Below are positions 8,854 to 64,000 of a stretch of DNA of 64,000 bases, piece by piece. The notes below the pieces were generated by a model. That model was not told where the DNA came from. It searched no databases and was given only the letters and a program-made list of their open reading frames with translations. The position numbers and the translations under genes are program-made. Source of the DNA: Microvirga tunisiensis. Lineage in GTDB: Bacteria > Pseudomonadota > Alphaproteobacteria > Rhizobiales > Beijerinckiaceae. How positions within the stretch are numbered: the first letter of the stretch is position 1; each line of letters starts with the position of its first letter. The stretch is from contig NZ_VOSK01000001.1 in assembly GCF_009296175.1 (NCBI RefSeq), positions 186,001 through 250,000 of the forward strand, read 5' to 3'.

Positions 8854-9523
8854 CACATGCCTCAACAATCCAGCTGTGGGGTTCTGCCCCACGACAGCGC
8901 ACAAGATCGACCTGCCATCGCTCTCGTCCGAGCCCGGGGGCAGGCATGGTTTCAGAAGATGCGGGCGCGATGCGCCAGCGCGTTGTGGCGGCGGTCGGAA
9001 GGTTCGTCAGATCCTTTTCCGCAACCGTCCACCAGCGCCGAAGCACAAGAGCCGGTACTCCTGATCCCTCTGCGGCAAGTTGCAACCGGCGGGAGGCTGT
9101 GAGGCCAAGGCGAGTAACTTCCCCGACCACGGCACCGAGGCCCTTCTCTCGAAGACCCTCCTCAACAAGAGGGAGAATGTCGCGGTCGTGGGATGTTTCG
9201 GCATAGATGACACGATCAGGATGTAGACCGACTTGGTGGAGCCCAGGCGCGAATAGATCACGGCGGGTGAGGCACCACAGAATGGGACCCTTGAGTCTTG
9301 CTGCGATGCCCGCGACGAAGAGGGTGGCGGTTCCGGCAAATTCGCTAGCTGGACCCGCTTCGATCACCTCGTGCAGCGCTCCGAGCGGGAGGCCTCCGCC
9401 CGGAAGGTGCCCGTCGAAGCTGGAAACTCCGAAGGGAAGGGGCTTCCGTCGGCGTGATCCGCCTTCCAGCCGCTCGATCTGGCGTCGTAGGTCGTCGATC
9501 GCGCTCTGGGTCCGGGGTTGCAT
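8771..9523 (-). CDS. imuA: ImuA, RecA-like SOS mutagenesis protein
   Basis: 250 residues. Begins with a helix-rich segment (IDDLRRQIERLEGG) and continues with a RecA-like core (GVSSFDGHLPGGGLPLGALHEVI), but lacks a normal Walker A motif, as expected for alphaproteobacterial ImuA. ImuA is required with ImuB and DnaE2 for induced mutagenesis and interacts with RecA. It is the first gene of the cassette, about 100 bp downstream of a perfect LexA box on the same strand. The 3' end overlaps imuB by about 80 bp. Confidence 0.92.
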   Translation of the reverse strand: MQPRTQSAIDDLRRQIERLEGGSRRRKPLPFGVSSFDGHLPGGGLPLGALHEVIEAGPASEFAGTATLFVAGIAARLKGPILWCLTRRDLFAPGLHQVGLHPDRVIYAETSHDRDILPLVEEGLREKGLGAVVGEVTRLGLTASRRLQLAAEGSGVPALVLRRWWTVAEKDLTNLPTAATTRWRIAPASSETMPAPGLGRERWQVDLVRCRGAEPHSWIVEACDEKGRLALPADLADRSDQATARRSAAR

Positions 9524-43083: not shown

Positions 43084-46000
43084 CTACGCCTCCACCGCGA
43101 CCGAAACGACACCATCAATAGCCTCGACGCTCTGTATGAACTCAGCTGTCGGGTTCACTCGATTAAACAACGTCTTGATCTCGTTTTGCTGGGTTTCGTG
43201 ACCGTCGGCAATAACAGGCCCAGCATTGAAGTAGACGAGGCGGTAGGTTCCGCCTTTCCCGTATAGACGGATCGAAGTCTTTACTTGGGTTTCAAGCTCT
43301 CGCGCTGGGGTTGCAGTCAGGCGGGAGTCTGCTTGAACGACTACAGCAGGGGATGAGGTTTTCCTTGCCTCATCGGGGGTCTGCCAACTGGACAGGACGC
43401 GCCCATCATTTCTGGAGACCAGTTGCAGAACCGCCACATCGCCAGCCTGTGGCGCTTTGGTCGGGCTCTCGGCAAAAGCCCGGATCCTGCCGGAACTGTC
43501 GCTGATGATGAGTTCCACGCCGGTCGCGTCTATGCCGGCAGGGCGGCGGTCTTTGGCCGGGTAGATCGCTTCGATTTGAGCAATGACCGTGAATGTCGTG
43601 TCATTTCGGACTTTGCCGACGGCTGATACCGGTGAGGCCGCAATCCGGTAGGAGAGGATCTTGTAGGCATCGGCCGGATGGTTTCTGAGGCGGAAGCCGA
43701 TGGCCTTGGTTTCGGCTTCGATCTCCTCGGAGACAGCTTGAGGCGGCGGAGGGGGCAACTTGCCCTGAGCAAGCGCCTGGCGACGAAGGCGGCGTTCGGC
43801 GTCGATGGCCGTCTCGCTTTGGAGATCCTCGAAAAGAGAGGGCGCCGAGCGGTCGACCTTGCCGCCGGTCATGTCGGACACAATCTCCCGAAGATCAAAG
43901 CGCCGCTCCCGGCTGCTGTGGTCAATGAGTGGATCGAAGGCGCCGGCATCTATGAGGGTGACGATCTGAGCCCGGTTGAGCCCAGTCTCGAACAGGCGAG
44001 CTACGGCGTCTGAAGCAGATCGGAACGGACCTTGAAGCGTCCGGTTACGCACGACGTCTGCTGCCGTAGAGCCACTGATGCCAGATAGGCCGGCGAGGGG
44101 AAAGCGGATGGCGTGATTACCCTCAGGATCGAAGGTGGCGGTCGAGACGTTGATGTCGGGCGGTAAAACAGCAATCCCGAGCCGCTCGGCCTCCCGTACC
44201 ACCGCTTCCAGCTTATCCGCATCGCTGCGATCGTAATCCATGTTGGCGGCCATGAAGGCGACCGTATGGTGGGTTTTAAGCCAAGCCGTGATCCAGGAGA
44301 TCCGCGCATAGGCCGCGGCATGGCTCTTGTTGAAGCCATAATCGGCGAACTTCTCCACGGTATCGAAGAGGCTTGCGCCTTGATCCCTAGGAATGCCGGA
44401 GTGACTTTCACAGCGCGAAATGAACTGGTCACGATTGCGCTTGAGCTCGTCCGCCTACTTCTTGCCGATAGCACGGCGTAGAACGTCCGCTTCTCCCAGA
44501 GAGTAGCCAGCGAGGACCCGGGCGGCCTCCATGATCTGCTCCTGATAGACCATGATGCCGTACGTCTCTTTTAGCACGGGCTCTAGTTTGGGATGAGGAT
44601 ACTCGACCGAGGTCCTGCCCGCTTTACGCTCGGCATAGAGGGGAATTTGATCCATCGGGCCGGGTCGGTACAGGGACACGAGGGCGACAATATCCTCAAA
44701 GGTGTTCGGCCTGATCTTCTTCAAGGCGCTGGTCATGCCCGGTGACTCCAGCTGAAAGACGCGCTGGGTTCGACCCTCATTGAGGTGCTTAAAGACGAGT
44801 TCGTCTTCGTAGGGAATAGAGTAGGGGTCGATCTCGATACCCTGAGACGCCAGGATGTTCTTGGTCCGGGTGATGACGGTCAGGGTTTTCAGACCGAGGA
44901 AGTCGAACTTCACCAGCCCGGTTTTCTCAATCGGGCCCATGTCGAACTGGGTCACAGGGACGATGCGTCCCTCGTCGAGCACGCCCATGACAGGCGTGGT
45001 CTCGGGCAAGGGCTCATCGGAAATCACGATGCCAGCGGCGTGCTTGGTGGCGTTGTCGAGAACGCCTTCAAGCTGCTCGGCGATGGACATAGCATCATCG
45101 AGCTCGATATTGTCGGCAAGAGCGTCCTTGACGGCTTGCTCCTCCCGGAAGCTCCTCAGGCCGTCACCCTTTTCCGGGAACTTCTTGGTGAATGAATCCG
45201 CCATGCCAGCCGGGATGCCGATGGCTCGGGCCGTGGCCTTGAAGGCGCCCCGGCCCTTTAGCGTGTTGTAGGCGGCGATATGGGCGACGTGATCGGCCCC
45301 ATACTTGGCACGGACATAATCGAGAACTTCGTCGCGACGCCGTTCGCAGAAGTCCACATCGAAGTCCGGCAGTGAGATACGCTCAGGGTTGATGAACCGC
45401 TCGAAAAGAAGGCCCCAGCGGAGCGGGTCGAGCTCGGTAATCCCGAGCGACCAGGCGACGAGCGATCCCGCACCGGAGCCACGACCGGGTCCGACTGGGA
45501 TATCATTGTGTCTGGACCAATTGATGAAGTCGGCGACGATCAGAAAATAGCCGGAGAAACCCAGTTTGGTGATGTGACCAAGCTCGATCCGCAGTCGCTC
45601 TTCATAGTCTGCGCGGCGCTCCTCCATATAGGGATTCTGCTGAAACAGGCGTTCGAGCCCTTGTTGGGCTGCCGTGACAACAGCTGCGTTCTCATCCGCG
45701 ACGCCTGGAGCGTGGGGCAGGCGGGGCTTGGATTCGATGACAGCGAAGTTGCCCAACATGAGAACGGACAGCGTGTTCTCAATTAGCGAGGCAGACTCCG
45801 CGAACAGAGCTTCGAATTCGTCAACGGACTTGAGATGCGAGCCCACGGGAGGAGCGGGAAAACCTGGGTCCTTGATCGTTGACTTGGCGGTTCCGTCGGC
45901 CGCGAACGTGAGGACGTTAAGGGCGACCCGATCTGCTTCGCTGGAGTGGCGTGCGGGGCTGATGGCGATTCCGGGAATGCGGTAATGCAGACACCATTGG

Positions 46001-46542
46001 GCGAGGAGTGCCTCGCGATCGGTGTCGCTGGCGCCCATCTCCAAATGCCGGTCGAATGCGACTGCCAATTGATCGCCAAAGACGGAGACCAGGCCCTTGA
46101 GAAACTTCTCGCCGGTTTCGACCCGATTCTGAAGAATGGCTTGGTCGATAGGGCCTTCGATCCCTCCAGTGGTGGCAAAGAGGCCGTCGGCATACGCAGC
46201 CAGATCCTCGAGCTCGATAAGGCTGCCCTTGCGCTTGTTGAAGAAACAGCTGTTGAGGCGAAGCAGGTTTTGCCAGCCAACAGCGTTCATCACATGGAGG
46301 GTGATGTAGCCGGAGGTGATCGGATCTCCGAACCGGAACCGCTCACCGATGACAGGCTTGAGGCCGGCGGCGATCGCGGCCTTGCTGAATTCAAGAGATC
46401 CGGCAAGGGACTGGCGATCCGCGATCCCGATCATGAAATGTCCGCGCTCCTTGGCGAGAGACACGAGCTTTTTCGGTGAAAGGGTGGAGCGGTGATGATG
46501 GCTGAAATGGGATTCGCAGGCGAGGAGCATCGGGAGGGTCAC
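43084..46542 (-). pseudogene. dnaE: DNA polymerase III alpha subunit, dnaE, with in-frame amber
   Basis: Both halves are in one frame, separated only by TAG at 44457-44455. The N-terminal 695 residues hold the PHP domain (ESHFSHHHRSTLSPKKLVSL) and palm (PDFDVDFCERRRDEVLDYVR) and end in the fingers at VLRRAIGKK. After the stop the same frame continues ADELKRNRDQFISRCES and EKFADYGFNKSHAAAYARIS, exactly where intact DnaE continues, then the beta-binding and OB-fold parts. With one residue at the stop the protein would be 1152 aa, normal length. It follows dnaQ by six bases. Could be a mutation, assembly error or read-through. Confidence 0.9.
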
Positions 46543-46548
46543 GCTTTA

Positions 46549-47274
46549 TCAGGATGCTTGCTTGGCAAGCCAAGCGAGCATTTCGTCGTGCTTGTCGTAG
46601 TCGTCATGGCTGAGGTTCATCAGCGGAAGGCCGTGGTTGACCGGGACAAACACCTTTGAAGCTGGGGCGGACGACTTCGTGCTCGTGAAGTCGAGCTGTC
46701 GTTCGGTCATCATGGTGGCATAGACTTGGGCGAGCAGGATGCAATCGACGAGGGCGTCATGCTTCTTCGACCGGTCGGCGGAGATGAACTTCGGGTCGAT
46801 CCCGGCCTCGCGGCAGGTGCGTTCGAGCGATGCCGTATCGCCCTGGATCATCAGGCGCCGGCAGAGGGCGTCGAGACTAACGGGCTGACCGGGCCACCGC
46901 TCGCGGGCGATGTCGATGGTATCAACGGCGTCATAGGGGAAGAGCTGACCAATCCGCTTGCACTCGGCGCCAAGGAAACTGAGGTCGAAGCGCTTGTTCT
47001 GAATGACCAGAACACTGTCACCGATGAAGTCGAGCAGCTGGTCGTGAATCTCCTCATACCGGGGCGCGCGAGCTGCATCCTCGTTGGTGATCCGATGGAT
47101 CTGATAGCTGTCGTAGGTGATCGGGCGGCCTTCTGGGTTAACGAGAGTGTTGAAAGTTCTCCCCGTCAGTCGGAAGTCGGCCATCTCGACACAGGCGATC
47201 TGGACGATGCGGTCCCCGTCTTCGGCCGACAGGCCGGTCGTCTCGGTATCAAGGGTCACATGGTAGAGAGGCAT
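46549..47274 (-). CDS. dnaQ: DNA polymerase III epsilon-like 3'-5' exonuclease
   Basis: 241 residues with the DnaQ exonuclease motifs: ExoI LDTETTGL near residue 8, ExoII VIQNKRFDLSFLGAE (Asn...Asp pattern), ExoIII HDALVDCILLAQVY with the catalytic His and Asp. It supplies proofreading for the alpha subunit encoded six bases downstream. C-terminal 50 residues (KVFVPVNHGLPLMNLSHDDY) may bind the polymerase. Starts after a strong terminator, so it has its own promoter or depends on read-through. Confidence 0.92.
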   Translation of the reverse strand: MPLYHVTLDTETTGLSAEDGDRIVQIACVEMADFRLTGRTFNTLVNPEGRPITYDSYQIHRITNEDAARAPRYEEIHDQLLDFIGDSVLVIQNKRFDLSFLGAECKRIGQLFPYDAVDTIDIARERWPGQPVSLDALCRRLMIQGDTASLERTCREAGIDPKFISADRSKKHDALVDCILLAQVYATMMTERQLDFTSTKSSAPASKVFVPVNHGLPLMNLSHDDYDKHDEMLAWLAKQAS

Positions 47275-47298
47275 GGAGATTCCGTCGGCTTGCAGAAA

Positions 47299-47328
47299 AA
47301 AACGAGGAGTTTGGCGACTCCTCGTTTT
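47299..47328 (-). terminator. Strong terminator upstream of dnaQ
   Basis: Perfect 12-bp inverted repeat AAAACGAGGAGT/ACTCCTCGTTTT with a six-base loop; on the minus strand it ends in a T-run and closes the 47355 gene. Confidence 0.92.
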
Positions 47329-47354
47329 GGTAGGTTTCAGGAGGCCCGGATGGG

Positions 47355-47786
47355 CTATGCTGCCTCTTGCTGGCGATCTTCCCAGTCGCGAATGTTGAGC
47401 GAGAGGTAGGGATTGCCGTTTCTGCCCGTGTACTCCCAGATCGAGACCCGCTTTTTGACCACGAGATCGTCGTTCACGCGCCCTGCAACCAGGCCGGTGT
47501 AACGAGGGCGGTTCTTGGCCACATCCTCTTCCTGCTCGGTTGCAGAGTTCTTCTTTTGGTCGAAGACTGTGCCGGAGAAGGTAAATCCTGTCTGCTTGCC
47601 GACGAACTTGATGCGCCGGCCTTGGGCCGGGCCGTTCTTGGTATTGATCTCAGTCTGGGGCTCGATAACGACGCGGTATTCCTCGCCGTCGATGTCCATC
47701 TGACTGCCGCTGTATTCCCCTTCGTCGCCCTGGCGCGTGTTCTTCCACGCGTTTCCCGTATTTGGCTTCGGAGTGTAATTGGACAC
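47355..47786 (-). CDS. Small DUF736/OB-fold-like protein, 143 aa
   Basis: GTG start nine bases after AAGGAG. The pattern GEYSGSQMDIDGEEYRVVIE, then RRIKFVGKQTGFTFSGTVFD and a C-terminal GRNGNPYLSLNIRDWED resembles the small DUF736-like or phage single-stranded-DNA-associated proteins with beta-strand-rich folds. The name is tentative. The position between cobT-like and dnaQ, with its own strong terminator, fits a replication accessory protein. Confidence 0.55.
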   Translation of the reverse strand: MSNYTPKPNTGNAWKNTRQGDEGEYSGSQMDIDGEEYRVVIEPQTEINTKNGPAQGRRIKFVGKQTGFTFSGTVFDQKKNSATEQEEDVAKNRPRYTGLVAGRVNDDLVVKKRVSIWEYTGRNGNPYLSLNIRDWEDRQQEAA

Positions 47787-47843
47787 TGAAAGATTCTCCT
47801 TAATGGATTTTGGCCTATCAGGCCTGTCATTCTAACCCGTCTC

Positions 47844-47867
47844 GTGAAACCCCATTAGAAGTTTCAC
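47844..47867. terminator. Hairpin between cobT-like and 47355 genes
   Basis: GTGAAAC/GTTTCAC 7-bp stem flanking CCCATTAGAA; the loop is part of the recurrent CCCCATTAGA motif and the hairpin overlaps the stop of the cobT-like gene. Confidence 0.45.
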
Positions 47868-50392
47868 AAAATGGGTCTAAGTGCAGTTAATAGTTTTGTG
47901 GGCAACTCCTGAATGGTTGGGACCGTTACCCAGAACGGCATTTCGAACTGCGGTTCCTGACTTCCGACGCTGACCCCAATCACGAACCCGCCCTCTTGCT
48001 TGATCATGGCAGCAGCCCGCTCGGCGAGGCCCCCATCGTTCGGCTCGCCGTCCGTGATGACGATGAGGATCTTCTTGTCCTCTTTTCTTGCGCGCATTCC
48101 CGACCACGCTTCGAGCATGGCTTCCCCGGTCGGGGTGCCTCCCATCTGGAACTGGGATTTAGCCATTTGGGACATGAGCCGGTCGATGCCTGCCCGGGCT
48201 GTCACGATGTTGTCCGTGAAGTCCTTGAGCAGGTACAGCGGGATTGAATTGTAGTGATTGGTATAGGCGAGGTAGCGCGTTACCACCCGCCGAGCGGGTC
48301 CCAAGGCCTCAGTCAGAGCAATCTTGGCGTCAAAATAGAGATCGATACGGCGGGGATTGCTCTGGCGATGGTTGATTGGGGTGTCGTCGTCGTCATTCGC
48401 GAACTCGGTCATCGACACTGATACGTCGCCCAGGAAGGTGATTGCAGTGTTGTTTGATCGGGTGATGGTGGTCCGGGCGTAGATATCCGGAGACATCGTT
48501 GCAATAGCGGTGATGTTGCGCATGTCGAGCTGCCCTTCCTCCCGGTTTGGGCTGCGCCGTCGAACATCGCGGGCGATCACGAGCGAACGGAGGGAGCCGG
48601 CAAGCGTGGATGTTACGCCTGCTAGACGGTCGCGCGCCGAGTTGTAGTGTCCGAGGTCGGATGGACCTTGCAGGGTCCGGTCGAGCCGGACGGTAGAGCC
48701 GATCGGAGTCGGGGAGGGAATGCAGCCCTCCTTTTCGAGCTTCTCGGCAATCTCCCCGATCTGATCGAGAATGTCGCCGATATCGAGCCGGTCTTGATCC
48801 TCGGGTTCGTGACCCTGTGCGGCCTGACGGATCCGCTCTTCGCGGGCGTCCGTGTCGTCCTCGTCGCTTCCATCCGTGCTCTCACCGTGCCCGTCGTCGT
48901 CTCCTGCCTCGTCCAAGGAGGGAACAGCGTCGAGATCCTGCCCCGATGCATCAGCAGTACCGGGTGAGGTTGTCTGGTCAGCGGAATCCCTCTGGTCGGA
49001 GCCGCAATCATTGGTGTCTCTGTCGGTCGCTGGGTCTTTCTCGGCGCCGGTGCCCGGGTTGGGGCTGTCCGGGGACTGAACTCCATCTTCGCGTTCTCCG
49101 TCATCGCCCTGATGAGAAGCGGCGTCGGACGGATCTTTGCCATCGGCTCCGTCGGAGCCATCGGAACGCGACGTGATGTCATTGTTCCCGGACTGGTCGG
49201 CCGTATCAGAGCTGGATGCGTCGTCGGTCAGGTCGGGATCTTCTCCGCCCTGACCACCCTGAGGGCCGTCCTCCGTGCGCTCGGGCTCCGACTCGCCGTT
49301 GCCAGGTTCGTCCGAGCCATCGGACCGATCTTCAGTGGCGCCAGATCGGTCTGTGTCAGCGCCCGGGCCATTGCTGGAATCGTCAGATGAGCCGTCCTGT
49401 GCGTGATCAGTATCGTCGGAGACATCTTGTGAGAGGTCATCCTCGGTCTGGTTCTCGTCCTCAGGTTGCTGATTGGGATCGGCCTCATCCGGGATTGCGG
49501 CGTTCTGGTCGTTCTGCGCTGACTGTTGATCCGGTTCGCTGTCCTGGTCCTCGTCTTGATCTTGGACTTGTCCCTGATCCTGATCCTGATCTGGGTCCTG
49601 GTCTTGCTGCTGATCCTGGTCCTGCTGCGGGTTAGGCTTGGGATCGTAAAAGCGAGTCAGGATGGTGTCAGTGAGGAGCTCTGCTTCATCCATGATCTTC
49701 TGGTTCGCGGTGACGTCGTCCTCTGAGACCGTCGAAAGGATCCGTGGCCACATCTCGTCGATCATCGCCGCGACTTCCGGATTGATCTTCCGAGCAATCT
49801 TCAGGCAGGCCTGGGCGGTGCTGGCACAGGTATAGCCGTTGGCAACAGCGTTGTGCCAGGTGAGCATGGCGCCGGCAGCTGTGAACGGGTTCTCAAGGCC
49901 CTTTGGGTTCTTGCGAAGACCGGCGATATCTCTGGAGACAACGTGTTCGCGTGTCGCATTGAGGTTATCACGGGTCCCTCGCCAATCCCTCATCAGATGG
50001 TGCTCGATCCGCCAGTCCTCTGCACAGTTCCAGAGATCGTGGATCGTCTTGATGCGGATGAGAGTTCGCTTGTCCGGCTTAGGGTTGAAGATGCCGGTGC
50101 GGATCTGATCGACCGAGAGGCCGGTCTTGTCCGCCAACATTTGCTGCCGCTTCCGCGTCGGTGTGTAGATGATGTGAGCTGACTCATGGTCCGCATAGCC
50201 GCGCATCACGCGGGCGTCAGGGACTCTATAAAGAGAGGCATCATCGATCGCTGGGAGCTTGATCAGGCCCGCGCCGTCAGTATAGGCACCTCTGCCCCTG
50301 AACTCGACTTTGACCTTGGCGCGGGAAACCGCCGTGCAATTGATGTCGATCTCGCGCTTGAGATCGTATCCAGGTACCGTGGCAGCGATCAT
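47864..50392 (-). CDS. CobT-like vWA-domain protein
   Basis: 842 residues from ATG 50392, overlapping the AAA+ gene stop (ATGA). N-terminus has a metal-binding-like HESAHIIYTP and helical region. Residues about 270-550 are a very acidic, Gln/Asp/Ser-rich linker. The C-terminal vWA domain (about 640-840) has a MIDAS: GDVSVSM, GGTPTGEAM and VITDGEPND. CobT/CobS pairs are a chelatase-like AAA/vWA couple; on plasmids and phages similar pairs serve other unknown tasks. No cobaltochelatase CobN is present, so cobalamin synthesis is unlikely. Confidence 0.82.
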   Translation of the reverse strand: MIAATVPGYDLKREIDINCTAVSRAKVKVEFRGRGAYTDGAGLIKLPAIDDASLYRVPDARVMRGYADHESAHIIYTPTRKRQQMLADKTGLSVDQIRTGIFNPKPDKRTLIRIKTIHDLWNCAEDWRIEHHLMRDWRGTRDNLNATREHVVSRDIAGLRKNPKGLENPFTAAGAMLTWHNAVANGYTCASTAQACLKIARKINPEVAAMIDEMWPRILSTVSEDDVTANQKIMDEAELLTDTILTRFYDPKPNPQQDQDQQQDQDPDQDQDQGQVQDQDEDQDSEPDQQSAQNDQNAAIPDEADPNQQPEDENQTEDDLSQDVSDDTDHAQDGSSDDSSNGPGADTDRSGATEDRSDGSDEPGNGESEPERTEDGPQGGQGGEDPDLTDDASSSDTADQSGNNDITSRSDGSDGADGKDPSDAASHQGDDGEREDGVQSPDSPNPGTGAEKDPATDRDTNDCGSDQRDSADQTTSPGTADASGQDLDAVPSLDEAGDDDGHGESTDGSDEDDTDAREERIRQAAQGHEPEDQDRLDIGDILDQIGEIAEKLEKEGCIPSPTPIGSTVRLDRTLQGPSDLGHYNSARDRLAGVTSTLAGSLRSLVIARDVRRRSPNREEGQLDMRNITAIATMSPDIYARTTITRSNNTAITFLGDVSVSMTEFANDDDDTPINHRQSNPRRIDLYFDAKIALTEALGPARRVVTRYLAYTNHYNSIPLYLLKDFTDNIVTARAGIDRLMSQMAKSQFQMGGTPTGEAMLEAWSGMRARKEDKKILIVITDGEPNDGGLAERAAAMIKQEGGFVIGVSVGSQEPQFEMPFWVTVPTIQELPTKLLTALRPIL

Positions 50393-52022
50393 GGGTTGAC
50401 GTTCTCCTCTGCCGGCCAATCATCGCCCATGACCTTGCGGGCGAGCTCGGCGATGGCACCGGACTCGGCTTCGTCCGATCCACGGTTGACAATGATTTTC
50501 TTGACGGACTCGACGCATGCCTTTGTCTCGTCATGAAGGATGGCTGTCTGGAAGGCAGCATAGCGGGCGCAGGCCTTCACCTGGCGGTAACTAAAGGCGC
50601 TCCTCAGCTTGCCTTCCCGAAGTGCGATCCTCATGGCGCCGGCGATGCGAACGATGTTGGTGGCAGTGTTGAGCGGAAGGTTCTGAACTTCCTTCCGGAT
50701 CTGCTTCACCTCGTTCTCTTCGGTCTGGTAGTCAAAATCGATCCAGAACGCGAAACGGTCACGGGTTGCCTCGCTCATTTCCTGAACCAACGCATAGAGG
50801 TTCATGCCGTCGGCGCGACCCTTGGTGTTGGCTGTCGCCATGATCGCCACCTTGGGGTGGGGGTAGACGACGCGGCCCTCATCCTCGAGGATGGTGATGC
50901 CGTTGCCCTCGTAGAGCTGGTGGGCGAGGTACTGCAGGTCCGGGTCGCCGCGGTCGATTTCGTCCACGTCGATGATCGCCGGCAACTTCATGGCCTGAAG
51001 GGCGATGCCGTCGAACCATTTTGTGGTAGAGGCGCCGTTCTCGACGACCTGCTTGAAGCCTCCGACGATCTCGCGGCGGCGCATCTCGCCGTCGATCGGA
51101 ATTCGGAACCACGGACGGCCCAGACGGGCAGCGATTTGTTCCGTAATGGTGGTCTTGCCGCAGCCAGGAGGTCCGACCAGAGCAGAGTTGTAGCCGTTCT
51201 CGATGGACCACAGGATCGGGGTCAGCTTTTCGGCATCGAAGGTGAACTCAGGCCTGATCACAGGAACCTTCGGGTGCGGCTCGTTCCAGACAACCACCTC
51301 GACGGGGAAGTTCAGATCACTGGGCTGCAACTTGGTCGGGATGGCATCTTTGAAGACGTCCCGGGCGAGTTTTCGTACGATGGTGTAGGTCGGCTCGTTT
51401 TCCGGCAGGGCTGACTTAGTGAGGCCCTCTTTCTTGAGACGAACGACCTCATCCTCGGCTGCGCGCAGCTTCTTGATGAGCTCCTCGACCGACCCAATTC
51501 TCTTGCTGGTGCCCTGCTGAATGACCGTGTCAGCGATCGCGAGTTTTTTCGGGTCATAGTCGAATGGCCCGACCGGGCAGAATGCGGTGACCGTGGAGGT
51601 TTCAACCGGTGGAGGCGGGGGGCGTCCGGGTCTGTGCTTGTCGAGTAGTACTGAGCCGCCATTTGGCGGATCTTCTCGATGTCCCTGTTCATGAGTTCTT
51701 CGTTGAACGGCGCGAACCCGTCGAAGTCCTCCTTGCGCTTCTTGCCGCGACCGAGAATGGTCATGGCAATCTCGCGCACCATGGGATCGTGCTCGAGGAA
51801 GGGGTTGATTTCGAAGACGGCCGCCAGCTTATTGACGTAGGAGTCATAGGCGGCCGCGATCTGGTCGTCGGTGAAGATCCCTTCGACAGCCAGCCTGATC
51901 TTCTGATCCTCTTCGAATTCCGCCGGCAGTGCCCCCGTGTGCTTGGGCTGCAGGACCATGCGAATGCGTGGCCCCAGCTTGAAGGCCGCGATGTGTCGGA
52001 AGACAGGTACGTCGTAATTCAT
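50389..52022 (-). pseudogene. CobS-like MoxR AAA+ ATPase, frameshifted
   Basis: The AAA+ part (50389-51330) has Walker A GPPGCGKTTITEQIA, Walker B IIDVDEIDRGD and sensor IMATANTKGRADGM. Coding continues upstream in that frame without a usable start, through PTYTIVRKLARDVF, CPVGPFDYDPKKLAIADT and PPPPVETSTVTAF, to a C6 tract (51617-51622). From there the N-terminus lies in a second frame starting ATG 52022 (MNYDVPVFRHIAAFKLGPRI). One extra C would join the parts into about 543 residues. Alternatives: programmed frameshift or assembly error. Confidence 0.85.
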
Positions 52023-52059
52023 GGATCTTTCCGCTGGAATTGGGTTGCAGAAATGCATC

Positions 52060-52082
52060 GGGGCGGACACTTGGTCCGCCCC
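52060..52082. terminator. Hairpin upstream of the cobS-like gene
   Basis: Perfect 9-bp stem GGGGCGGAC/GTCCGCCCC with a five-base loop between the SF2 helicase stop and the cobS-like start. No T-run; may act as a weak terminator or attenuator. Confidence 0.6.
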
Positions 52083-52133
52083 GGCACGCGGCTCTCGGCC
52101 GCTCTCATTCATTCTTTGGGTTTGGGGTCAGCC

Positions 52134-53891
52134 CTACATTTCCCATCCGACACTTGGTCTAACTGGACGGCTAGTTCTGGGAGGCTTCGGAGTCGGTACT
52201 GAAACGCCCTTCGGCTGGGAGGTGCCCTCTAGGCCTGTTCCCATTCTCTTCTGGGTCAGGGTTTTGAATTCTTCCTGAGACAACCTATTGAGGTTGGTCA
52301 TCATAGAAATTCCCTTTTGGCTCTGCTGAAAAACCTCCGAGGCAATTTGGAAGGCTTTCGAGACCTTGATCGTCTGATCTTCAATCTTGACCTGTACCTT
52401 GCGGCTGCGCAGGGACAGGTAGTCCGACTCATGCCTGGCTATAGTGTCACGGGCGAAGGTGACGAGTTCCTTTGCACTGAAGGGGCGGGACTGGACGCTT
52501 TTGATGCTGCGGCTGCCGGTAGTCCTCTCCTCCGAGCAGCAAACAACGTGGAACGACGGCTGGCCCTTGGCATCGCGAACGGCCTGGGCAAAGTACACTT
52601 CGCTGCCAGTGCAGATCGCCCGAACCCAGGGGTTGTCGGAGACCTTTGTCCAAGCCTTGTAGGTTGTGTCTCCCTTTTCCACGAACCGCTGGGCGTCAAT
52701 GTATTCGTTCATGGTGCCATGAACATAGGTGCTCGCCCCCATATCGATGAGGATCCCGTGCGTCTTCCCTATTGCGCTCCGGGCGGCGCGGCCGACCATT
52801 TGCATGTATTCAGCCCGGCTCAAGATCTCCTTGGTATTAAGAATGGCGACCGTTTCCGGAGCGTCAAAGCCTTCGCCGATCATACCGACTGAACAAAGCG
52901 CCTGGACCTTGCCGCTTGCATAGTCGGTGACGGCAGCCTCGATCTCGTCATGCCGCATCTCGGAATGAATTACTCCGGCACCGATGCCTTGATCCTCGAA
53001 CGCGGTCTTTAGTTTCTCCGCATCATCGATTGTCGTGGCAAACCCAAGGATCGGCCTTCCCTCAAGCCCTCGTCTTCTCATCTCTTGACAGGCTTCACGT
53101 GCCGCTCTGTCGAAAAAATCATCTGGCCTGTTGCGTTGGATCAGTGAGCGGATTCCCGCGCGGGTCTTCTGGATATCCCGGTCGTCGATCTTCGCTTCGA
53201 TGGCGTCCCTGACCCAAGTGCCATTCTTCAATGGGTAATCGGGTGTGACCGTTGGGACCTCCGTGATTTGTCCGATCTTGATGGCCTCGGCATAGGTCAT
53301 GACAATCCGTCTCGCAGAGGCAAGACGGGGATGGAGGCTGGCACCGTCCCCACGGAACGGCGTTGCAGTGGTACCGACAATGACGGCACCGGGGTTGGCT
53401 TTGGTCACCTCGTCGATGACACGGCTGTATTCGGAAGCTGGATCTTCGTCAGTGGTGTGGTGGCATTCGTCGATTTGGATGAGGGCGAAATGCCCGAGTT
53501 CATCCATCCTTGAGGCGATAGTCTGGGGAAGGGCATAGACGACATCGGCTTGCTTGGCGCCGAGGATATTACCGTCCATTGCAACGGCTGTTCTATCGGG
53601 GTCGATCCCGGAGTGAGAGGATTTCTGAGAATTCTGGGAGGCGATCCTGCGAAGACCCTGGAGCACGAGGACCCGGCTGTCGCTGATGCCGTCCTGAAGG
53701 CGATCACCGTCACTGATAGCAGCTGCCACCCGATTGTTGATCCAGGTTTTCCCGCCACCCGTGGGGGCGATCAGAAGCACGTCTTCGCCGTTCCGGACCG
53801 CATCTATGATCTCAGAAGCGATCCGCTCCTGAAGCTCGCGAGCTTTAGGATTGACGTAAAACGCCGGCGTCTGGGATGCATTGGGCGACAT
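52134..53891 (-). CDS. SF2 DEAD/DEAH-type helicase, 585 aa
   Basis: Walker A VLLIAPTGGGKTWINNRVAA, DEXX box LIQIDECHHT, motif III VGTTATPFRG, motif IV/V region ALCSVGMIGEGFDAPETVAI and motif VI YMQMVGRAARS. The overall architecture resembles restriction-type or UvrB-like SF2 translocases. C-terminal 150 residues are helical then Pro/Arg/Ser-rich. Reads into a 111-bp gap before the cobS-like gene. May repair or restart DNA replication on the replicon; no nuclease domain seen. Confidence 0.88.
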   Translation of the reverse strand: MSPNASQTPAFYVNPKARELQERIASEIIDAVRNGEDVLLIAPTGGGKTWINNRVAAAISDGDRLQDGISDSRVLVLQGLRRIASQNSQKSSHSGIDPDRTAVAMDGNILGAKQADVVYALPQTIASRMDELGHFALIQIDECHHTTDEDPASEYSRVIDEVTKANPGAVIVGTTATPFRGDGASLHPRLASARRIVMTYAEAIKIGQITEVPTVTPDYPLKNGTWVRDAIEAKIDDRDIQKTRAGIRSLIQRNRPDDFFDRAAREACQEMRRRGLEGRPILGFATTIDDAEKLKTAFEDQGIGAGVIHSEMRHDEIEAAVTDYASGKVQALCSVGMIGEGFDAPETVAILNTKEILSRAEYMQMVGRAARSAIGKTHGILIDMGASTYVHGTMNEYIDAQRFVEKGDTTYKAWTKVSDNPWVRAICTGSEVYFAQAVRDAKGQPSFHVVCCSEERTTGSRSIKSVQSRPFSAKELVTFARDTIARHESDYLSLRSRKVQVKIEDQTIKVSKAFQIASEVFQQSQKGISMMTNLNRLSQEEFKTLTQKRMGTGLEGTSQPKGVSVPTPKPPRTSRPVRPSVGWEM

Positions 53892-56861: not shown

Positions 56862-59800
56862 TCAGGCAATCAGGCTCCAATCGGGCTGATCCGAAGTATA
56901 GGCGTATCCGTACAGAGCGATAAGGTTCTTCAACGTCTGTTCAGCCTTAGCTGAATCCGTCGGGAAGGCGAGATACTCCAGACCATTGAACGTAACGAGA
57001 TCCAGGCCGAGGTGCGGGGCATTTGCCTTGAACGTCTTCAGCTTGTCGTCAGACAGGTTGTAGGTCTGACGCACGGCCGTCATCACGAGCTGCGGGGTGA
57101 TCATCGTGCTGTTGCTCAGGACAATCGTCTTTCCGGCGTCGAGCTCCTGCTTGATCTCGGCGAAGTCGAGCGCTCCGCCGACCTTGAGGTTGCCAAGCTT
57201 GATGCGGATATCCTCGACCTCCTCCTCCGAGGTGATGAACCCAAGGATCCGGCTCCCGTCGCTGGTGTTGGCGATCCAGAGGCGGCGACCGAAACCGAAC
57301 TTGGTCTTGCCGAAGTGCTTCCAGATCAAGGGCAGAGCGCCCGAGATCATGATCTTCTCGCGGGCACGATGGTTCTTGATGCGATCCACCTGAACCTGCC
57401 AGAGCATCTCGGCCCGTGACTGATCCTCGACCTTCTCGATACGGCGTCCCCGCATGGCGAATTTCGGCATCACGCACTCGCCGTCTGGGCGGATGACATG
57501 AACCATTTCCCAGCCGTTGGAGGCCAAGCCCGTGGGCACCTCGATCCATACGTCCGCCGTCGACATGTTGAACCAGGTTTGGGGCATGTCAGTTGTGGAG
57601 CGGAGGAGGAGCGCCGTCTGGTACGCTTGGCTGAAATACGAGATGTTCGAGTTGGGGTCGCATTCGAGCTTGGTGACCTTAACCCGAGCGCCCGTGAAGG
57701 GATGGGTGTAGATCACGTTTTCGTCGATGGTGCGAACTTCCTCCCGCATGAACTCCGGCCCCGTGTCGAAATTGCCGTCCGAGATGAGTGCCATCACGTG
57801 GTTTGCGATCTCGGAGTCGAGGTAGGCGAACGCCTTCCGCTGCACGGCGATTGGGAGCGTCGCTGCCCGACGGAGGAAGACTTCGAGGGTGATGTAGCTT
57901 TGGCCCCGGTAGCTGCCCTTGGTCTCAAGGTCGTTGAGGAAGGTGATATCCTCCGGTTTGAGATCATCATAGCTGCCACCTTTGAGCTTTGCGTAGAACG
58001 AGCTCCAGCCTGAATACGCATGGGACGAGCGGTAGCTGTCCAGCGACGTAAAGAGACCGTTCGAGGTCGCCTGTCGGTGCCCCTGGCTCAGGGCGCCGAG
58101 GCTCGCCATGCGGGTCACGACAGACGAGAGATAGACCTTCTCAGCGGGGATATCGAGGGCAACGTACGATACCACAGGCGGCTGCTTTTGGTTGCTGCGA
58201 TGCGACCGGCCGAGACCCTGAACGGCCTGATCCGCCTGCGATCCGAGCTGCAGGACGTAGTGGCGCCGCTGCCGCTGGTTTCGCGCGAACAGGCTCGCGT
58301 GGTAATCCATTCCAGTGCCGCCGGCGCTGTTGCTGAAGACAAGGATCTGTTTCTGGTCGTTCATAAAGGCCCGCCAGTCCTGACGGACGTCGCGCTCCGT
58401 GCGTGGCTCCAACTTGCTTGCGGCGTTAGCATCCCCGTGGTTGCCCAGAGCATCGACTGGCACGACGCGCTTAGACCGTCCGGTGATCTCCGCCACCTGG
58501 GACGTGCCAAAGTTTCCGAGAAGTGCTTCCAGCGGGCGAATAAAGCCCGGCATGGACTGAATCTTCTCGATCAGGGCACGCTTGGCATCGACGTTCATGT
58601 CGATTGTGACCATGGAACCGTTCTTCTTGATCGCGAAGCCTTCCTTGTTGGTCAGGACCTCCGGCAAGGACTCTACGAACCGGATGAGTTCGCTCGCTGC
58701 CTGGAGCTTCGAGGCATCGATGTCGCCGCTATCGAGATGGCGGTCGAGCTCCGCTTCGAACGTGTTCTGCAGCTGGATGACGCAGGCTTCGCCGCGTGCG
58801 AGGGCCTTCTTGATGTCCTCGATGAGGCTGTGTGTCTTGATCGAAACGATCAGGGTGTCGATCACGCGCTTGGAGAGTTGGGCGTAGAGCGCACCGAAAT
58901 ACGTGCCGCCGTTAGCCGTCCGGACTTGGCGCCAAGTTGGCTTCCAGCCCTTCTCATCGGCGGGCACGGCGTTCTCGATGCACGTCCGGGCAATGCTGGT
59001 GATCTCGTAGAGCATATTTGAGTATCGGTCGAACAACTCGATGTCGTTGGCCGACATCGGGTGGATCAGCTCTTCGTAGCGGACACCCTCAAGGGAGAGC
59101 TGCCGGCAGACCATCTGCCCTGCGGCCTTGATGTGCGAGGTGATCGCTTCCAGTCCCGAGAGGCCCGCGCCACCGAAATCGTCGAAGAAGTCGGTGGGCT
59201 TGGCGTAGCTGGTCCCGGCGCCCCACAGACCAAGGCGGACCATGTAGGCGAGATTGTCGAGCTCGGTTGCACCGGTGGCCGAGCAATAGACCACGCGAGC
59301 GTTCGGCAGGGCGTTCTGTAACTTGATGCCAGCGAGACCCTGCAGGGAGGTGGCGACGCCCCAGCCACCGTCGTTCTTGTTCGAATCCAGACCGTTGCGC
59401 ATGTTCTGGCTCTCATCCAGCACGATGACGCCGTCGAAGTCCTCACCGACCCAATCTGTGATCTGCTTCAGGCGGTCGAAACGGCCGGTTTCATTTTGGC
59501 TTCGGAGAAGTGCATAGGTCAGATAAAGGATACCATTGCGCTTCGGTACCGCATGCTTGCGGTTGTAGTCGCCGAGATTGATCAGATTCTCGGTCGACAT
59601 TCCCAGCATTTGCATGGCCTTAACGACATTCTCTCGATGCCTCTGCTTCTCGCCGACGACGATCGCCTTACGGCGGCCGCGGTTCCAGTTGTCGAGAATG
59701 ATGCCGGTGGTTTCGTTGGTCTTGCCCGCGCCGGTACCGTCTGCAACGAGGAAGCCCAGCCGAGGCTCGGCATTGAGGTCAGGGTCAAACGGAAGAAGCT

Positions 59801-60722
59801 TGCTGTGAGCCTCGCCGGCGAGCACGATGCTCTCCAACTGAATGTCGGACAATGCACCGGAGCGGATTACCTCCGGGTCGAGCATGGGCTTATATGTCGG
59901 CGCGACTGGTTTGGACCCGGCAAGGGTCTTCGACTGAATCAGGGCCGCCGGATGGGGTTTAGCTTCGGCGAAGATTGCGCATTCCGGACGGTACTGGTCG
60001 TAGATCTCATTCACGCTGCCGGAATCATCTTCCGTCGGTGGATTGTGGGAGATCTCGATTGCCTTGCCCTTGGCCACTTTGGGCGGGCGGCGGGTGGCCG
60101 GATCGCGCACAGGAATGATGTCGAGCGCCTGACCGGCGGTCTTGTCGATCACTTTGATGTCTACGACTTCCGGAGCGACGGTGGCATCCGTTCCGCCGAC
60201 ATAAAGGTCCACAGCTGCATCCTCAATGTTGAAGCTGGCGATGCGACCGGCATTGACGAACAGGTGATCGGATGGGGCGTCAGCCTTGCTGCGAACCACA
60301 GCGACACGAGTATCATCCGGGACGGCAAAGCCTTGGGGAGGAACGGATTGCGCGGGGCTGGACAGAATGATGCCGTTCGGGGAAGGGCTCTTCTTCTTGG
60401 GGGTAGCGCCGCTAGCCGAAACGATGGCGGCGGACACGCAGCTGTCGACAAGGATATTGTCGTTCTGGGCAATGCCGACGAGGCGGGCGGCGGCCCAAGT
60501 AGCTTCTATGTTTGCAGTTTTCGGGAGGGCGCACAGCTTGCGCAGCACTGCGACGGCGTTGAGAGAGGCTGCGCTGGATGGTGCGTCTGGGCCAATCTGA
60601 TCGGCATAGCGGGCGAAGGCCGCCTGCATGGTCTCCATTGCAAGCTCCTGATCGCCTGCGTCGAGAGTGTGGCCGCGTGCGATCTTTTCCAGAGCCTTGG
60701 TCACTTCGGTTTGCGTCGCCAT
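56862..60722 (-). CDS. Strawberry-notch-like SF2 helicase, 1286 aa
   Basis: ATG 60722 (MATQTEVTKALEKIARGHTL) is chosen; upstream in-frame sequence lacks coding character. Walker A FLVADGTGAGKTNETTGII, DEXX box VIVLDESQNMRNG, motif III VVYCSATGATELDNLAYMV. A second RecA lobe is seen near SNSAGGTGMDYHASLF with QGLGRSHRSNQKQPP as motif VI. The architecture matches bacterial and phage strawberry-notch helicases, which remodel DNA-bound proteins or chromatin in eukaryotes; bacterial role unknown. The first 300 residues are a separate N-terminal domain. Large and well conserved in motif spacing. Confidence 0.88.
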   Translation of the reverse strand: MATQTEVTKALEKIARGHTLDAGDQELAMETMQAAFARYADQIGPDAPSSAASLNAVAVLRKLCALPKTANIEATWAAARLVGIAQNDNILVDSCVSAAIVSASGATPKKKSPSPNGIILSSPAQSVPPQGFAVPDDTRVAVVRSKADAPSDHLFVNAGRIASFNIEDAAVDLYVGGTDATVAPEVVDIKVIDKTAGQALDIIPVRDPATRRPPKVAKGKAIEISHNPPTEDDSGSVNEIYDQYRPECAIFAEAKPHPAALIQSKTLAGSKPVAPTYKPMLDPEVIRSGALSDIQLESIVLAGEAHSKLLPFDPDLNAEPRLGFLVADGTGAGKTNETTGIILDNWNRGRRKAIVVGEKQRHRENVVKAMQMLGMSTENLINLGDYNRKHAVPKRNGILYLTYALLRSQNETGRFDRLKQITDWVGEDFDGVIVLDESQNMRNGLDSNKNDGGWGVATSLQGLAGIKLQNALPNARVVYCSATGATELDNLAYMVRLGLWGAGTSYAKPTDFFDDFGGAGLSGLEAITSHIKAAGQMVCRQLSLEGVRYEELIHPMSANDIELFDRYSNMLYEITSIARTCIENAVPADEKGWKPTWRQVRTANGGTYFGALYAQLSKRVIDTLIVSIKTHSLIEDIKKALARGEACVIQLQNTFEAELDRHLDSGDIDASKLQAASELIRFVESLPEVLTNKEGFAIKKNGSMVTIDMNVDAKRALIEKIQSMPGFIRPLEALLGNFGTSQVAEITGRSKRVVPVDALGNHGDANAASKLEPRTERDVRQDWRAFMNDQKQILVFSNSAGGTGMDYHASLFARNQRQRRHYVLQLGSQADQAVQGLGRSHRSNQKQPPVVSYVALDIPAEKVYLSSVVTRMASLGALSQGHRQATSNGLFTSLDSYRSSHAYSGWSSFYAKLKGGSYDDLKPEDITFLNDLETKGSYRGQSYITLEVFLRRAATLPIAVQRKAFAYLDSEIANHVMALISDGNFDTGPEFMREEVRTIDENVIYTHPFTGARVKVTKLECDPNSNISYFSQAYQTALLLRSTTDMPQTWFNMSTADVWIEVPTGLASNGWEMVHVIRPDGECVMPKFAMRGRRIEKVEDQSRAEMLWQVQVDRIKNHRAREKIMISGALPLIWKHFGKTKFGFGRRLWIANTSDGSRILGFITSEEEVEDIRIKLGNLKVGGALDFAEIKQELDAGKTIVLSNSTMITPQLVMTAVRQTYNLSDDKLKTFKANAPHLGLDLVTFNGLEYLAFPTDSAKAEQTLKNLIALYGYAYTSDQPDWSLIA

Positions 60723-60808
60723 GAGGTTCTCATCTTGCGGGCGGCAGGCGCCCGTCATTTTGGGGATTTGGGGAATTCCGCTGATCACCTGGTGAACCAA
60801 ATAAAAAT

Positions 60809-60828
60809 GCCCCGCATCCTGGCGGGGC
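60809..60828 (-). terminator. Rho-independent terminator
   Basis: GCCCCGC/GCGGGGC 7-bp stem with a six-base loop. On the minus strand the hairpin is followed by ATTTTTATTT, so it ends transcription of the 61038 gene before the strawberry-notch gene. Confidence 0.8.
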
Positions 60829-61037
60829 CCTTTTCCAATGCAAGTAGGCATAATGGCGTGGTTTTAGGTTCGCGAGACGGCAAAGGGTAGGTCAAAAATT
60901 GTTTGGCACCGGAAGGCTCTAGTACGGAGTCAACTGAACCTTCGGCTTACCATGGGTCGGGATTGAGCGCATCGTTTCATCGCCGCGATTGGAGGGTTAA
61001 ACTCGCCGGGAACCTGAAATGATGAACTGCAGCAGCT

Positions 61038-61584: not shown

Positions 61585-62361
61585 TTACCATACCTTCTCC
61601 TCCCATTCTTTGTATTCTGAAATTTCCTTAAATTCTGCGGATATACATCTCACTGTTGCTTCGAGCTTGTGTTCGAGGCACTGTAGGATGTGAGAAATAA
61701 ACATGGAAATCGAAGCATCTATGTTCTTCCCGCCATGAATCAGAATGACTATGGCCGTGGAAATTGCGGCCGTCTCTATGCACTCACGGAGAGATCTTTC
61801 GGAGTCGTGCTTAATATGTTCTTCCGATAAGACGTATCCCCACCCGACACGGTTTCGTTCGCGGGACTCGATAACTGGTACCTTCGTGCGAACGATCCTA
61901 CACCGTCCTATTTTGACGTCTTTTAACTTCATTACGGTGCGCCACTCGGGATGCTTGAAGATGGTTCCGATCCGATGCGCAGTTACGGCGATCGCATCGG
62001 AACAAGGTCCGCCCTTTTGCCGCTCGTACTCTAAGATAGCACCTTCCGGGTCGTTTACGTCTCCATAGATAATATGCTCTTCTGGGGTCGCATTGGACGG
62101 CGCATCACAGAGTAGCCGAATGCCGCTTTCACTTTCCCGCATTCCAAAATAGGGATTGCCGAGTTCATCAACGTGATTTCGTGCTTGTTCGAGCAAATTA
62201 TCAATACAATCCCGACAATCTCTAAGATCTTTATACTCTAATCTTTCAAGGATATAGGAAAGGGCCATGCGGTAGTCGTTCGAAGGTATACCAGCATTGG
62301 CGAGTCTATCCGCCGAATCCGAAATTGCAGTCTCATCGGGATCAGTTTGATCGGTAATTAC
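61585..62361 (-). pseudogene. Hypothetical protein, 5' end cut by IS66
   Basis: The reading frame runs into the IS element; sequence upstream of 62361 (first 50 codons of the present frame) is antisense IS DNA. Without the IS and one target duplicate, the gene would begin ATG within the upstream gene, as MRSIKVITDQTDPDE. The surviving part (DYRMALSYILERLEYKDLRD, CIDNLLEQARNHVDELGNPY, SEEHIIYGDVNDPEGAILEY) looks like a folded protein of about 260 residues, with lower G+C codon use than neighbours. No family recognised. Its start and ribosome-binding site are lost. Confidence 0.75.
62354..62361. repeat. IS66 target-site duplication, left copy
   Basis: GTAATTAC immediately left of the IS end, identical to 63714-63721 on the right. 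Eight base pairs is the usual IS66-family target duplication. Confidence 0.9.
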
Positions 62362-63713
62362 CCAGGCCCTTGCACGAGTCGGGCTTCGCTGATTCCATGC
62401 CTGTATGGGCCGCAGCGATCTTGAGCGTCTGAGCAAGGAAGAGCTGATCGAGCTGGTGCTGCGACTGCAGCGGCCGCAAAAGACCTCGCGCACGTCCTCA
62501 AAGCCGCCCTCGACCGATCGCAAGCAGCGTCGGGATCAGGCCAAGCCCGGCGGAGCCAAGCCTGGTCACGAAGGCCACAGCCGGATCCTCAGCGCCACGC
62601 CCGATGAGGTGGTCGAGCACCGTCCTGACCGGTGCTCGTGCTGTTCGGCTGTCCTGATGGCGGATTGGCCGGCGGAGACGATCAGCCTCCACGAGCAGAT
62701 TGAGCTGCCGGCGGTGGCGCCCCGTGTCACCCAGCATCGGCGCCTGGCGGTGCGCTGCCGGGCGTGTGGAACGCGGGTCGCCGCGGCCGTGCCGGACGCC
62801 GCCAAGGGGACGCCGTTCGGGCCCCGCGTCCATGCCATGGCGACTTATCTCAAGACCTTCCAGGCTCTGTCCTACGAGCGGCTGCAAAGCGCATTCGCGG
62901 ATCTGTTCGGGCTCACCGTCAGCCAGGGCGGCCTGATGACCATGCTGCGCCGAGCGCAGGGCGCCTTTGCGGCCGAGCGCGACAAGGCGGTTGCGGCGTT
63001 GCGCCAGGCCAAGGTCATCGCTTCCGACGAGACCGGCGTCCGGATCGAGGGCTCCAACGCCTATCATTGGGTGTTTCGCTGTTCGGAGGCGGTGGTCCAT
63101 CACGCCTCTCCAACCCGGGGCGCCAGCGTGATCCGGACCGTGATGGACGGGCACCGGCCCGAGGTCTGGTGTTCCGACCGCTACAGCGCGCAGCAGGGCC
63201 ATGCCGACGCCCACCAGACCTGCCTGGCCCATCTTGCCCGCGACGTCGCCTATGCCGATGAGGCGAGTGAGGATATCCTGCCCTCCCGCCTCCAGCTGTG
63301 GCTGTACCGGGCCTTTGCCCTGGCGGAGGAGGTCGGATCCCTTGCCGCCTCGACCCTCGCTCGCAAGCGCCGGGCCCTGGAGCGAAGTCTGGACGCGATC
63401 CTGGCCGCGCCGACCTCCTGCGATCTGGCCCGTGACCTTCAGAGCAAGGTCCGGCGCGCCCGCGATCAGCTCCTGACCTTCGCCCACTGGCCCGGACTGG
63501 TTGATGCGACCAACAACGCCTGCGAACGCGCTCTCAGACCCGCCGTCATTCAGCGCAAGGTGACCAACGGCTATCGCTCCATGTGGGCCGCCGAGGGCGA
63601 AGCGGACATACGCACGGTCGTTGACACGGCTCGTCTCGGTCCGGCCACCAATGCGTTCAACACAATCCTTCAGACCGTGTCTGCCTGAACCTCAGTGCGA
63701 AATAGGGGCGTGG
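62362..63713 (+). mobile_element. IS66-family insertion sequence (single-ORF type)
   Basis: 1352 bp bounded by identical GTAATTAC duplicates. Ends are imperfect inverted repeats: left CCAGGCCCTTGCACGAG, right (reverse complement) CCACGCCCCTATTTCGC. It carries only tnpC, without tnpA or tnpB, as in the ISBst12-type subgroup. The intact target duplication points to a single, fairly recent insertion. It splits two overlapping host genes. Confidence 0.88.
62405..63688 (+). CDS. tnpC: IS66-family transposase TnpC
   Basis: 427 residues. N-terminal basic linker (SSKPPSTDRKQRRDQAKPGG), a zinc-binding-like CSCCSAVLM...CRACGT region, then the DDE core: SDETGVRIEG (first Asp), EVWCSDRYSAQQGH (second Asp), and NNACERALRPAVIQRKVTNG (Glu), typical of IS66 TnpC. 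Performs transposition of its own element. Intact reading frame without stops, so probably active. G+C content is higher than in neighbouring genes. Confidence 0.93.
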   Translation: MGRSDLERLSKEELIELVLRLQRPQKTSRTSSKPPSTDRKQRRDQAKPGGAKPGHEGHSRILSATPDEVVEHRPDRCSCCSAVLMADWPAETISLHEQIELPAVAPRVTQHRRLAVRCRACGTRVAAAVPDAAKGTPFGPRVHAMATYLKTFQALSYERLQSAFADLFGLTVSQGGLMTMLRRAQGAFAAERDKAVAALRQAKVIASDETGVRIEGSNAYHWVFRCSEAVVHHASPTRGASVIRTVMDGHRPEVWCSDRYSAQQGHADAHQTCLAHLARDVAYADEASEDILPSRLQLWLYRAFALAEEVGSLAASTLARKRRALERSLDAILAAPTSCDLARDLQSKVRRARDQLLTFAHWPGLVDATNNACERALRPAVIQRKVTNGYRSMWAAEGEADIRTVVDTARLGPATNAFNTILQTVSA

Positions 63714-64000
63714 GTAATTACTTTGATCGAACGCATCGCGGAGTTGATCAATTTGATCTTGGGTCAGTCCAGGGCGGTTGAATAGCCTTGCAACCACGGT
63801 CATTTGCATTCTGTTTGGAACGATGTCTAACACGTCCAGAGTCTGAACAACTCTTCCGTCGGGTGAAACCATCTCCACCGGGCGAGAGACGAAGCAGTTG
63901 ATTACAAAGTCAGGTGGTTCGGTAGGAAAGGTCCGTTCCGCACCCTGCACAAGCTCAAGTCCCTCGCTGATCACCTCCTCGGTAATCAATTGATGGTCGT
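63657..64000 (-). CDS. Hypothetical protein, 3' end altered by IS66, 5' end outside window
   Basis: The frame is open to the window edge, so the start is not visible. The surviving part (PDFVINCFVSRPVEMVSPDG, TLDVLDIVPNRMQMTVVARL) is a mixed alpha/beta protein; sequence before the IS ends IDQLRDAFDQSNY. Without the IS it would end three residues later (RSN then stop), overlapping the start of the downstream gene. Instead, it now reads 18 residues into the IS. No family recognised. Only the last few residues are changed, so function may persist. Confidence 0.65.
   Translation of the reverse strand, partial: DHQLITEEVISEGLELVQGAERTFPTEPPDFVINCFVSRPVEMVSPDGRVVQTLDVLDIVPNRMQMTVVARLFNRPGLTQDQIDQLRDAFDQSNYPRPYFALRFRQTRSEGLC
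63714..63721. repeat. IS66 target-site duplication, right copy
   Basis: GTAATTAC directly right of the IS end, identical to 62354-62361. Confidence 0.9.

Follow-up and report, generated by a model that had tools for sequence, protein, structure and literature searches.

Does a polymerase gene that is complete except for one in-frame amber codon still serve the element that carries it, has it recently been lost, or has its sequence been misread? This question is raised by an accessory dnaE in a 64,000-nt stretch of DNA (henceforth the window), which is part of a 281,640-bp contig (C135) in the draft genome of a soil-type Microvirga bacterium. The draft comprises 8.83 Mb in 1,022 contigs with an estimated contamination of 8.78%. 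The gene closes a 10.8-kb operon (43084-53891) that encodes, in this order, a helicase, a MoxR-like ATPase, a VWA-domain protein, a small protein, DnaQ and DnaE. Ordinary loss of function or a sequence error, rather than a new form of gene control, is most likely to account for the amber codon. The features on which the argument draws are the following.

43084-46542, minus strand: accessory dnaE (DNA polymerase III alpha), 1,152 codons with one TAG interruption
44455-44457, minus strand: in-frame TAG, codon 696, close to the end of the fingers domain
44458-46542, minus strand: part of dnaE before the TAG, 695 codons, with PHP, palm and most of the fingers (Pfam)
43084-44454, minus strand: part of dnaE after the TAG, 456 codons, with the fingers end, HHH_6 and the C-terminal part
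46549-47274, minus strand: dnaQ-like proofreading exonuclease gene, 6 bases before dnaE
47355-47786, minus strand: small gene, GTG start assigned by eye, placed like a hypothetical gene of Microvirga sp. VF16 in a comparison of layouts
47864-50419, minus strand: VWA-domain protein; its Pfam CobT match is under the cut-off
50389-52112, minus strand: gene of a MoxR-like AAA ATPase, split into ORFs 51312-52112 and 50389-51330
51617-51622, minus strand: run of six C where the frame of the MoxR gene changes, the second lesion of the operon; a scan places the switch at 51610
52134-53891, minus strand: RadD-like DEAD helicase, head of the operon

A DnaE frame with one internal TAG

The dnaE frame starts with a GTG at 46542 and has a TAG as its terminal stop. 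Its translation reads ...LRRAIGKK up to the internal TAG and ADELKRNRDQF... behind it. Profile searches recognize DnaE on both sides: PRK05673 matches the half before the TAG with E=3e-206 and the half after it with E=1.8e-59, and the NCBIfam DnaE model is covered from position 11 to 708 and then from 711 to 1017, i.e., continuously across the TAG. The PHP, palm, fingers and HhH domains follow each other in DnaE order, divided between the two halves; in Pfam searches, the half before the TAG matches PHP, the polymerase domain and the fingers profile as far as its position 146 of 166, and the half after it matches HHH_6. In an alignment to 2hpi, a DnaE of known structure, the TAG comes directly after the conserved GKK. 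Near-invariant positions (at least 98% conserved) are kept in 101 of 103 cases (85/86 before the TAG and 16/17 after it), compared with 103/103 in five sister proteins from other Microvirga. A bacterial DnaE is expected to be encoded in an uninterrupted frame, and this frame is broken at codon 696.

The translation and the DnaE profiles thus agree with the initial annotation of this DNA, which had described one amber codon in the fingers, just after RRAIGKK, that interrupts a full-length DnaE whose parts share one frame. They likewise confirm that the 456 codons behind the TAG are open and include GFNKSHAAAYA, that the next in-frame start is the GTG at 44358, and that intein residues or an insert are absent. 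An intein or split intein was rejected as an explanation: the profile match is continuous, no insert is present, and the TAG lies ~40 residues before FNKSH, which we take to be the known split-intein site of DnaE, rather than at that site.

The genome holds four matches to PF07733, namely a chromosomal-type dnaE, two dnaE2 and the accessory dnaE. The chromosomal gene (contig C578, 1,159 aa) is intact, as are both dnaE2, one on contig C220 and the other in the window at 4100-7378; an extra dnaE2 fragment lies on contig C243. Window positions 4100-9523 form an ImuA-ImuB-DnaE2-like mutagenesis cassette, the ImuA model being under its cut-off. The window also encodes a large Strawberry-notch type helicase (56862-60851) and contains an IS66 family transposase region (~62343-63725), whose counterpart on a plasmid of Microvirga ossetica is 94.7% identical.

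Relatives of the polymerase and the age of the break

The nearest relatives of the accessory DnaE come from five other Microvirga genomes (G003, G009, G011, G020 and G021) and are 41-42% identical by BLAST and 44-45% by another search. A phylogenetic tree unites the accessory DnaE and these five sisters in one clade (support 1.0); plasmid-encoded DnaE from Erythrobacter and Sphingosinicella join it with support 0.999, and that from Bosea with a lower value of 0.776. The accessory DnaE therefore belongs to a plasmid lineage. All five sister loci conserve the order MoxR-VWA-DnaQ-DnaE and have no stop in the aligned parts of the four genes. A helicase was also found in both sister loci that were read far enough: VF16 has a DEAD helicase before MoxR, and in BT688 the RadD-like helicase of the window has its match in the corresponding place.

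Plasmid pMVF16-3 of Microvirga sp. VF16 (NZ_CP069357.1) and the loci of the four other Microvirga share gene order and clade with the window, but differ in that their dnaE lacks stops, their MoxR gene is a single frame and their DnaE is just 41-42% identical. Large plasmids of Erythrobacter aureus, Sphingosinicella and Bosea likewise carry an additional DnaE close to a DnaQ-type gene; in the stretches read there, the annotation names neither a MoxR nor a VWA gene. Given that the homologous operon of VF16 lies on a circular 731-kb plasmid, the accessory dnaE is probably plasmid-borne as well. The initial annotation had called the gene replicon-borne; VF16 favors this assignment, but the 281,640-bp contig itself showed neither a RepC match nor a terminal overlap, and we retain it as probable. 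Elsewhere in the genome, 14 RepC matches are spread over 12 other contigs, in keeping with many RepABC-type replicons or a mixed sample.

All five sister DnaE, which include the plasmid comparison proposed in the initial annotation, are uninterrupted and have a sense codon at the aligned TAG site. So do 34 of 34 loci when dnaE1, dnaE2 and plasmid types are taken together (one genome is represented twice), and 122 of 122 full-length homologues, none of them close in either set. The length filter applied to the latter set would drop broken genes; the 5 of 127 sequences that it did drop also lack a stop. The site tolerates variation: the 122 aligned homologues show six different residues at it, and given this variety any residue inserted at the TAG would probably do.

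Searches for closer relatives returned, among the matches listed, proteins whose identity does not exceed 45% in 101 genomes (the gene's own among them, the window itself excluded), 44% in 397 genomes of the order, and 42% in plasmids and in contigs of genomes and viruses; among the best matches to plasmids and phages none reached 60%. These collections may omit records very near the window's genome. At the DNA level, 48 genomes of the genus yielded only short diverged pieces, and a plasmid search with 40000-64000 yielded only matches to the IS66 region, in four plasmids. A close relative that shows the state just before the change was not found in these searches.

Behind the TAG, conserved residues have survived to about the same extent as in the sisters. 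Of the positions with at least 90% conservation, 38 of 45 after the TAG are kept, the same count as in every one of the five sisters; before the TAG the count is 123 of 137 (sisters: 121-122). The corresponding counts after the TAG are 28 of 31 at the 95% level (sisters: 28-29) and 16 of 17 at the 98% level (sisters: 17). Judged by this conservation, the break is young. Identity to the 122 other homologues after the TAG lies on average 2.5 points (short measure) or 3.3 points (longer measure) under a regression on pre-TAG identity, around which single pairs scatter by 3.5 and 2.9, respectively. The protein thereby ranks 17th lowest of 123 in post-TAG relative identity by the short measure and 2nd lowest by the longer one; uninterrupted plasmid DnaE (L234 and L235) are also low. 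These values leave room for a slight relaxation of constraint after the TAG.

Other lesions and the decoding of the TAG

The MoxR gene is a single 552-codon frame in VF16 and has no stops in any of the five sisters. Here, the coding signal before the C6 run lies in a different frame, the second frame has no start codon before 51330, and similarity to VF16 begins at 51615, two bases past the run. The first 135 residues are no more similar to the N-terminus of VF16 than shuffled sequences are; the N-terminal lengths are alike (135 here, 152 in VF16). From coding signal, frame, start-codon absence, the start of the VF16 match and N-terminal length, we infer that the two ORFs are one frameshifted gene.

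A scan for in-frame stops, which used lower thresholds and a six-frame comparison and was confined to stretches of the 281.6-kb contig with coding signal (125 ORFs, 58% of its length), gave 11 stops between coding stretches. Inspection assigned ten of these to gene boundaries and left the dnaE TAG as the only stop in the interior of a gene; at a stricter threshold the scan reports one place, which is not dnaE. A scan for frame switches reports two places at its strictest setting (MoxR and the gene boundary 113496), ten at the middle setting (MoxR, 115529, seven boundaries, and 123239, of uncertain type) and 35 at the laxest. The switch at C135:115529, outside the window, is a frame change in the middle of an alcohol dehydrogenase-like gene. 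By our own arithmetic, one or both of the other two mid-gene lesions would fall in the 10.8-kb operon by chance with a probability of ~7.5%. A small number of lesions is thus present on the contig, and two of these share one operon (10.8 of 281.6 kb); this clustering is suggestive but not strong. Decay by several mutations, which the initial annotation had regarded as speaking against an isolated amber break, is therefore seen at the level of the operon, through moxR, and not within dnaE.

Breakage of accessory polymerases also occurs elsewhere in the genus. Internal stops are absent from dnaE1 in 48 of 48 Microvirga genomes. Among 56 dnaE2 matches of at least 1,000 residues, five are listed with one stop, which lies inside the aligned gene only in genome G041 (a TAG) and in none of the other four. 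A further dnaE2, in G021 (L246), has a TAG and a frame change, and dnaE2 fragments are present in more genomes, e.g., G018 and G027. The G041 gene (L214, C1:1293900-1298900) resembles the accessory dnaE in that both encode accessory C-family polymerases and are interrupted by one TAG; it differs in being another gene with the stop at another site, which aligns to residue 586 of the window's DnaE2. In the portion of Belinky et al. 2021 (PMC7918605) drawn on here, in-frame stops in bacterial genes are described as widespread and short-lived, with mobilome genes over-represented; many are argued to keep purifying selection, and some are suggested to be read through. These cases likewise have one stop in an otherwise conserved coding frame, but the main set of that study consists of stops common to at least two species, whereas the dnaE TAG was seen once.

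The genome encodes RF1 (prfA, over cut-off), and TAG ends 26 of the 125 well-supported ORFs on the contig, about a fifth, one of them being the dnaE piece before the TAG. With RF1 present and TAG in normal use as a stop, a changed code was rejected. RF00005 gave 54 tRNA matches in the genome; ARAGORN recognizes tRNAs at 52 of 53 loci, and CTA is not among their anticodons; those of the other locus and of the match on C135, read by eye, are TTT and CAT. A CTA anticodon is accordingly absent from these 54 matches, a list that is incomplete and lacks tRNA-Trp. At normal settings, ARAGORN detects no tRNA in the window or the rest of the contig. The contig's only RF00005 match (C135:165639-165711, outside the window, 32.9 bits) is a weak tRNA-like sequence with a CAT anticodon and an encoded CCA; the CTA suppressor tRNA on the same replicon, for which the initial annotation had suggested a search, did not appear. 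Very relaxed ARAGORN settings return 256 tRNAs on the rest of the contig, including at least one 'Pyl (cta)' among those listed, which was regarded as noise. Pyrrolysine was rejected too: the PylS match scores 20.6 bits against a cut-off of 178, and 13 of 14 control genomes also match, one of them over the cut-off. RNA folds around and after the TAG are not clearly better than those of shuffled sequences (z -0.14, 0.12 and -1.60). The marks of a recoded amber codon, i.e., a suppressor tRNA or PylS, loss of RF1 or avoidance of TAG, and a stop kept in relatives, were thus not observed, and amber control of dnaE is unsupported.

Explanations of the break and the role of the operon

We consider it probable that the TAG is a recent, real nonsense mutation in an accessory polymerase that can be dispensed with. 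The Pol III core (DnaE and DnaQ) would be the element's own, encoded together with a helicase, a MoxR-like ATPase and a VWA-domain protein in one operon, and loss of the accessory DnaE would be tolerated because the chromosomal DnaE of the host is intact and could replicate the element. Translation would end at codon 696 and yield a fragment without the fingers end and the entire C-terminal part. In DnaE proteins, the C-terminal part carries clamp binding. Lacking both, the truncated DnaE should be inactive as a replicative polymerase. As in a pseudogene, a disabling lesion occurs where relatives are intact: a TAG stands where they have a sense codon; a pseudogene here would be very young at most. 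Against a nonsense mutation count the lack of clear decay after the TAG, which read-through would also predict, the position of the MoxR lesion in a C6 run, where indel errors typically arise, the lack of a close relative with the preceding state in the collections searched, and the ~7.5% probability that a second lesion falls in the operon by chance. On balance, we infer that the sequence is correct and the accessory dnaE dispensable. As with every amber codon, traces of read-through may be produced; this would not be a control device.

A sequence or assembly error, or a mixed sample, would mean that the actual gene is functional, with a sense codon in place of the TAG. The fragmented draft with its estimated contamination, the conservation of the part after the TAG and the nearby MoxR lesion in a homopolymer, where indel errors are frequent, all favor this account; yet the dnaE TAG is the sole in-gene stop among the 11 scanned on the contig, and the assembly shows dnaE1, prfA and the two dnaE2 intact. 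A single substitution is, moreover, not the usual type of consensus error, and we regard an error as unlikely. Useful read-through, leaky or regulated, that supplies a small amount of full-length polymerase would fit a single stop in an otherwise conserved gene, the tolerant site with its six residues among 122 homologues, and the purifying selection argued for many in-frame stops in the portion of PMC7918605 drawn on here. It is very unlikely in view of the missing CTA tRNA among the 54 matches (the list without tRNA-Trp), the presence of RF1, the PylS score under its cut-off, the absence of the TAG from all aligned homologues (none close), the unremarkable RNA folds and the second lesion of the operon, in the MoxR gene. 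The more specific idea that a leaky amber codon at a tolerant site restrains the element's private polymerase, which would give DnaE in traces and DnaQ in full from the same transcript, is highly improbable. A split polymerase, in which translation restarts after the TAG and the second chain joins the first, could use the in-frame GTG at 44358; by eye, however, no Shine-Dalgarno-like sequence precedes this codon at the right distance, a restart there would omit fingers codons 696-728, and the profile match is continuous without an intein insert, which makes this arrangement barely conceivable. Of the three options in the initial annotation, a very recent break is thus favored by the kept conserved residues, an assembly error persists as a lesser possibility, and read-through gained no positive support.

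With a recent nonsense mutation as the preferred reading, the locus is a plain case of an accessory polymerase lost while the host copy does the work. Should read-through be shown after all, a stop codon would be limiting a replicative polymerase to traces, which would be an unusual case. Searches of titles and abstracts found no report of an amber codon in a plasmid dnaE, nor of an operon of helicase, MoxR, VWA, DnaQ and DnaE. Immediately ahead of dnaQ (~47326-47296, by eye), a hairpin with a T run suggests that dnaQ and dnaE form a transcript of their own. The MoxR and VWA proteins also match the phage families phrog_249 (named porphyrin biosynthesis) and phrog_1576 (annotated as unknown), which we take to be CobS/CobT-like. 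This conserved operon is a more useful by-product of the analysis than the broken dnaE itself: it joins a Pol III core to a MoxR/VWA pair and a helicase on large Microvirga elements, and its role in replication or repair is testable.
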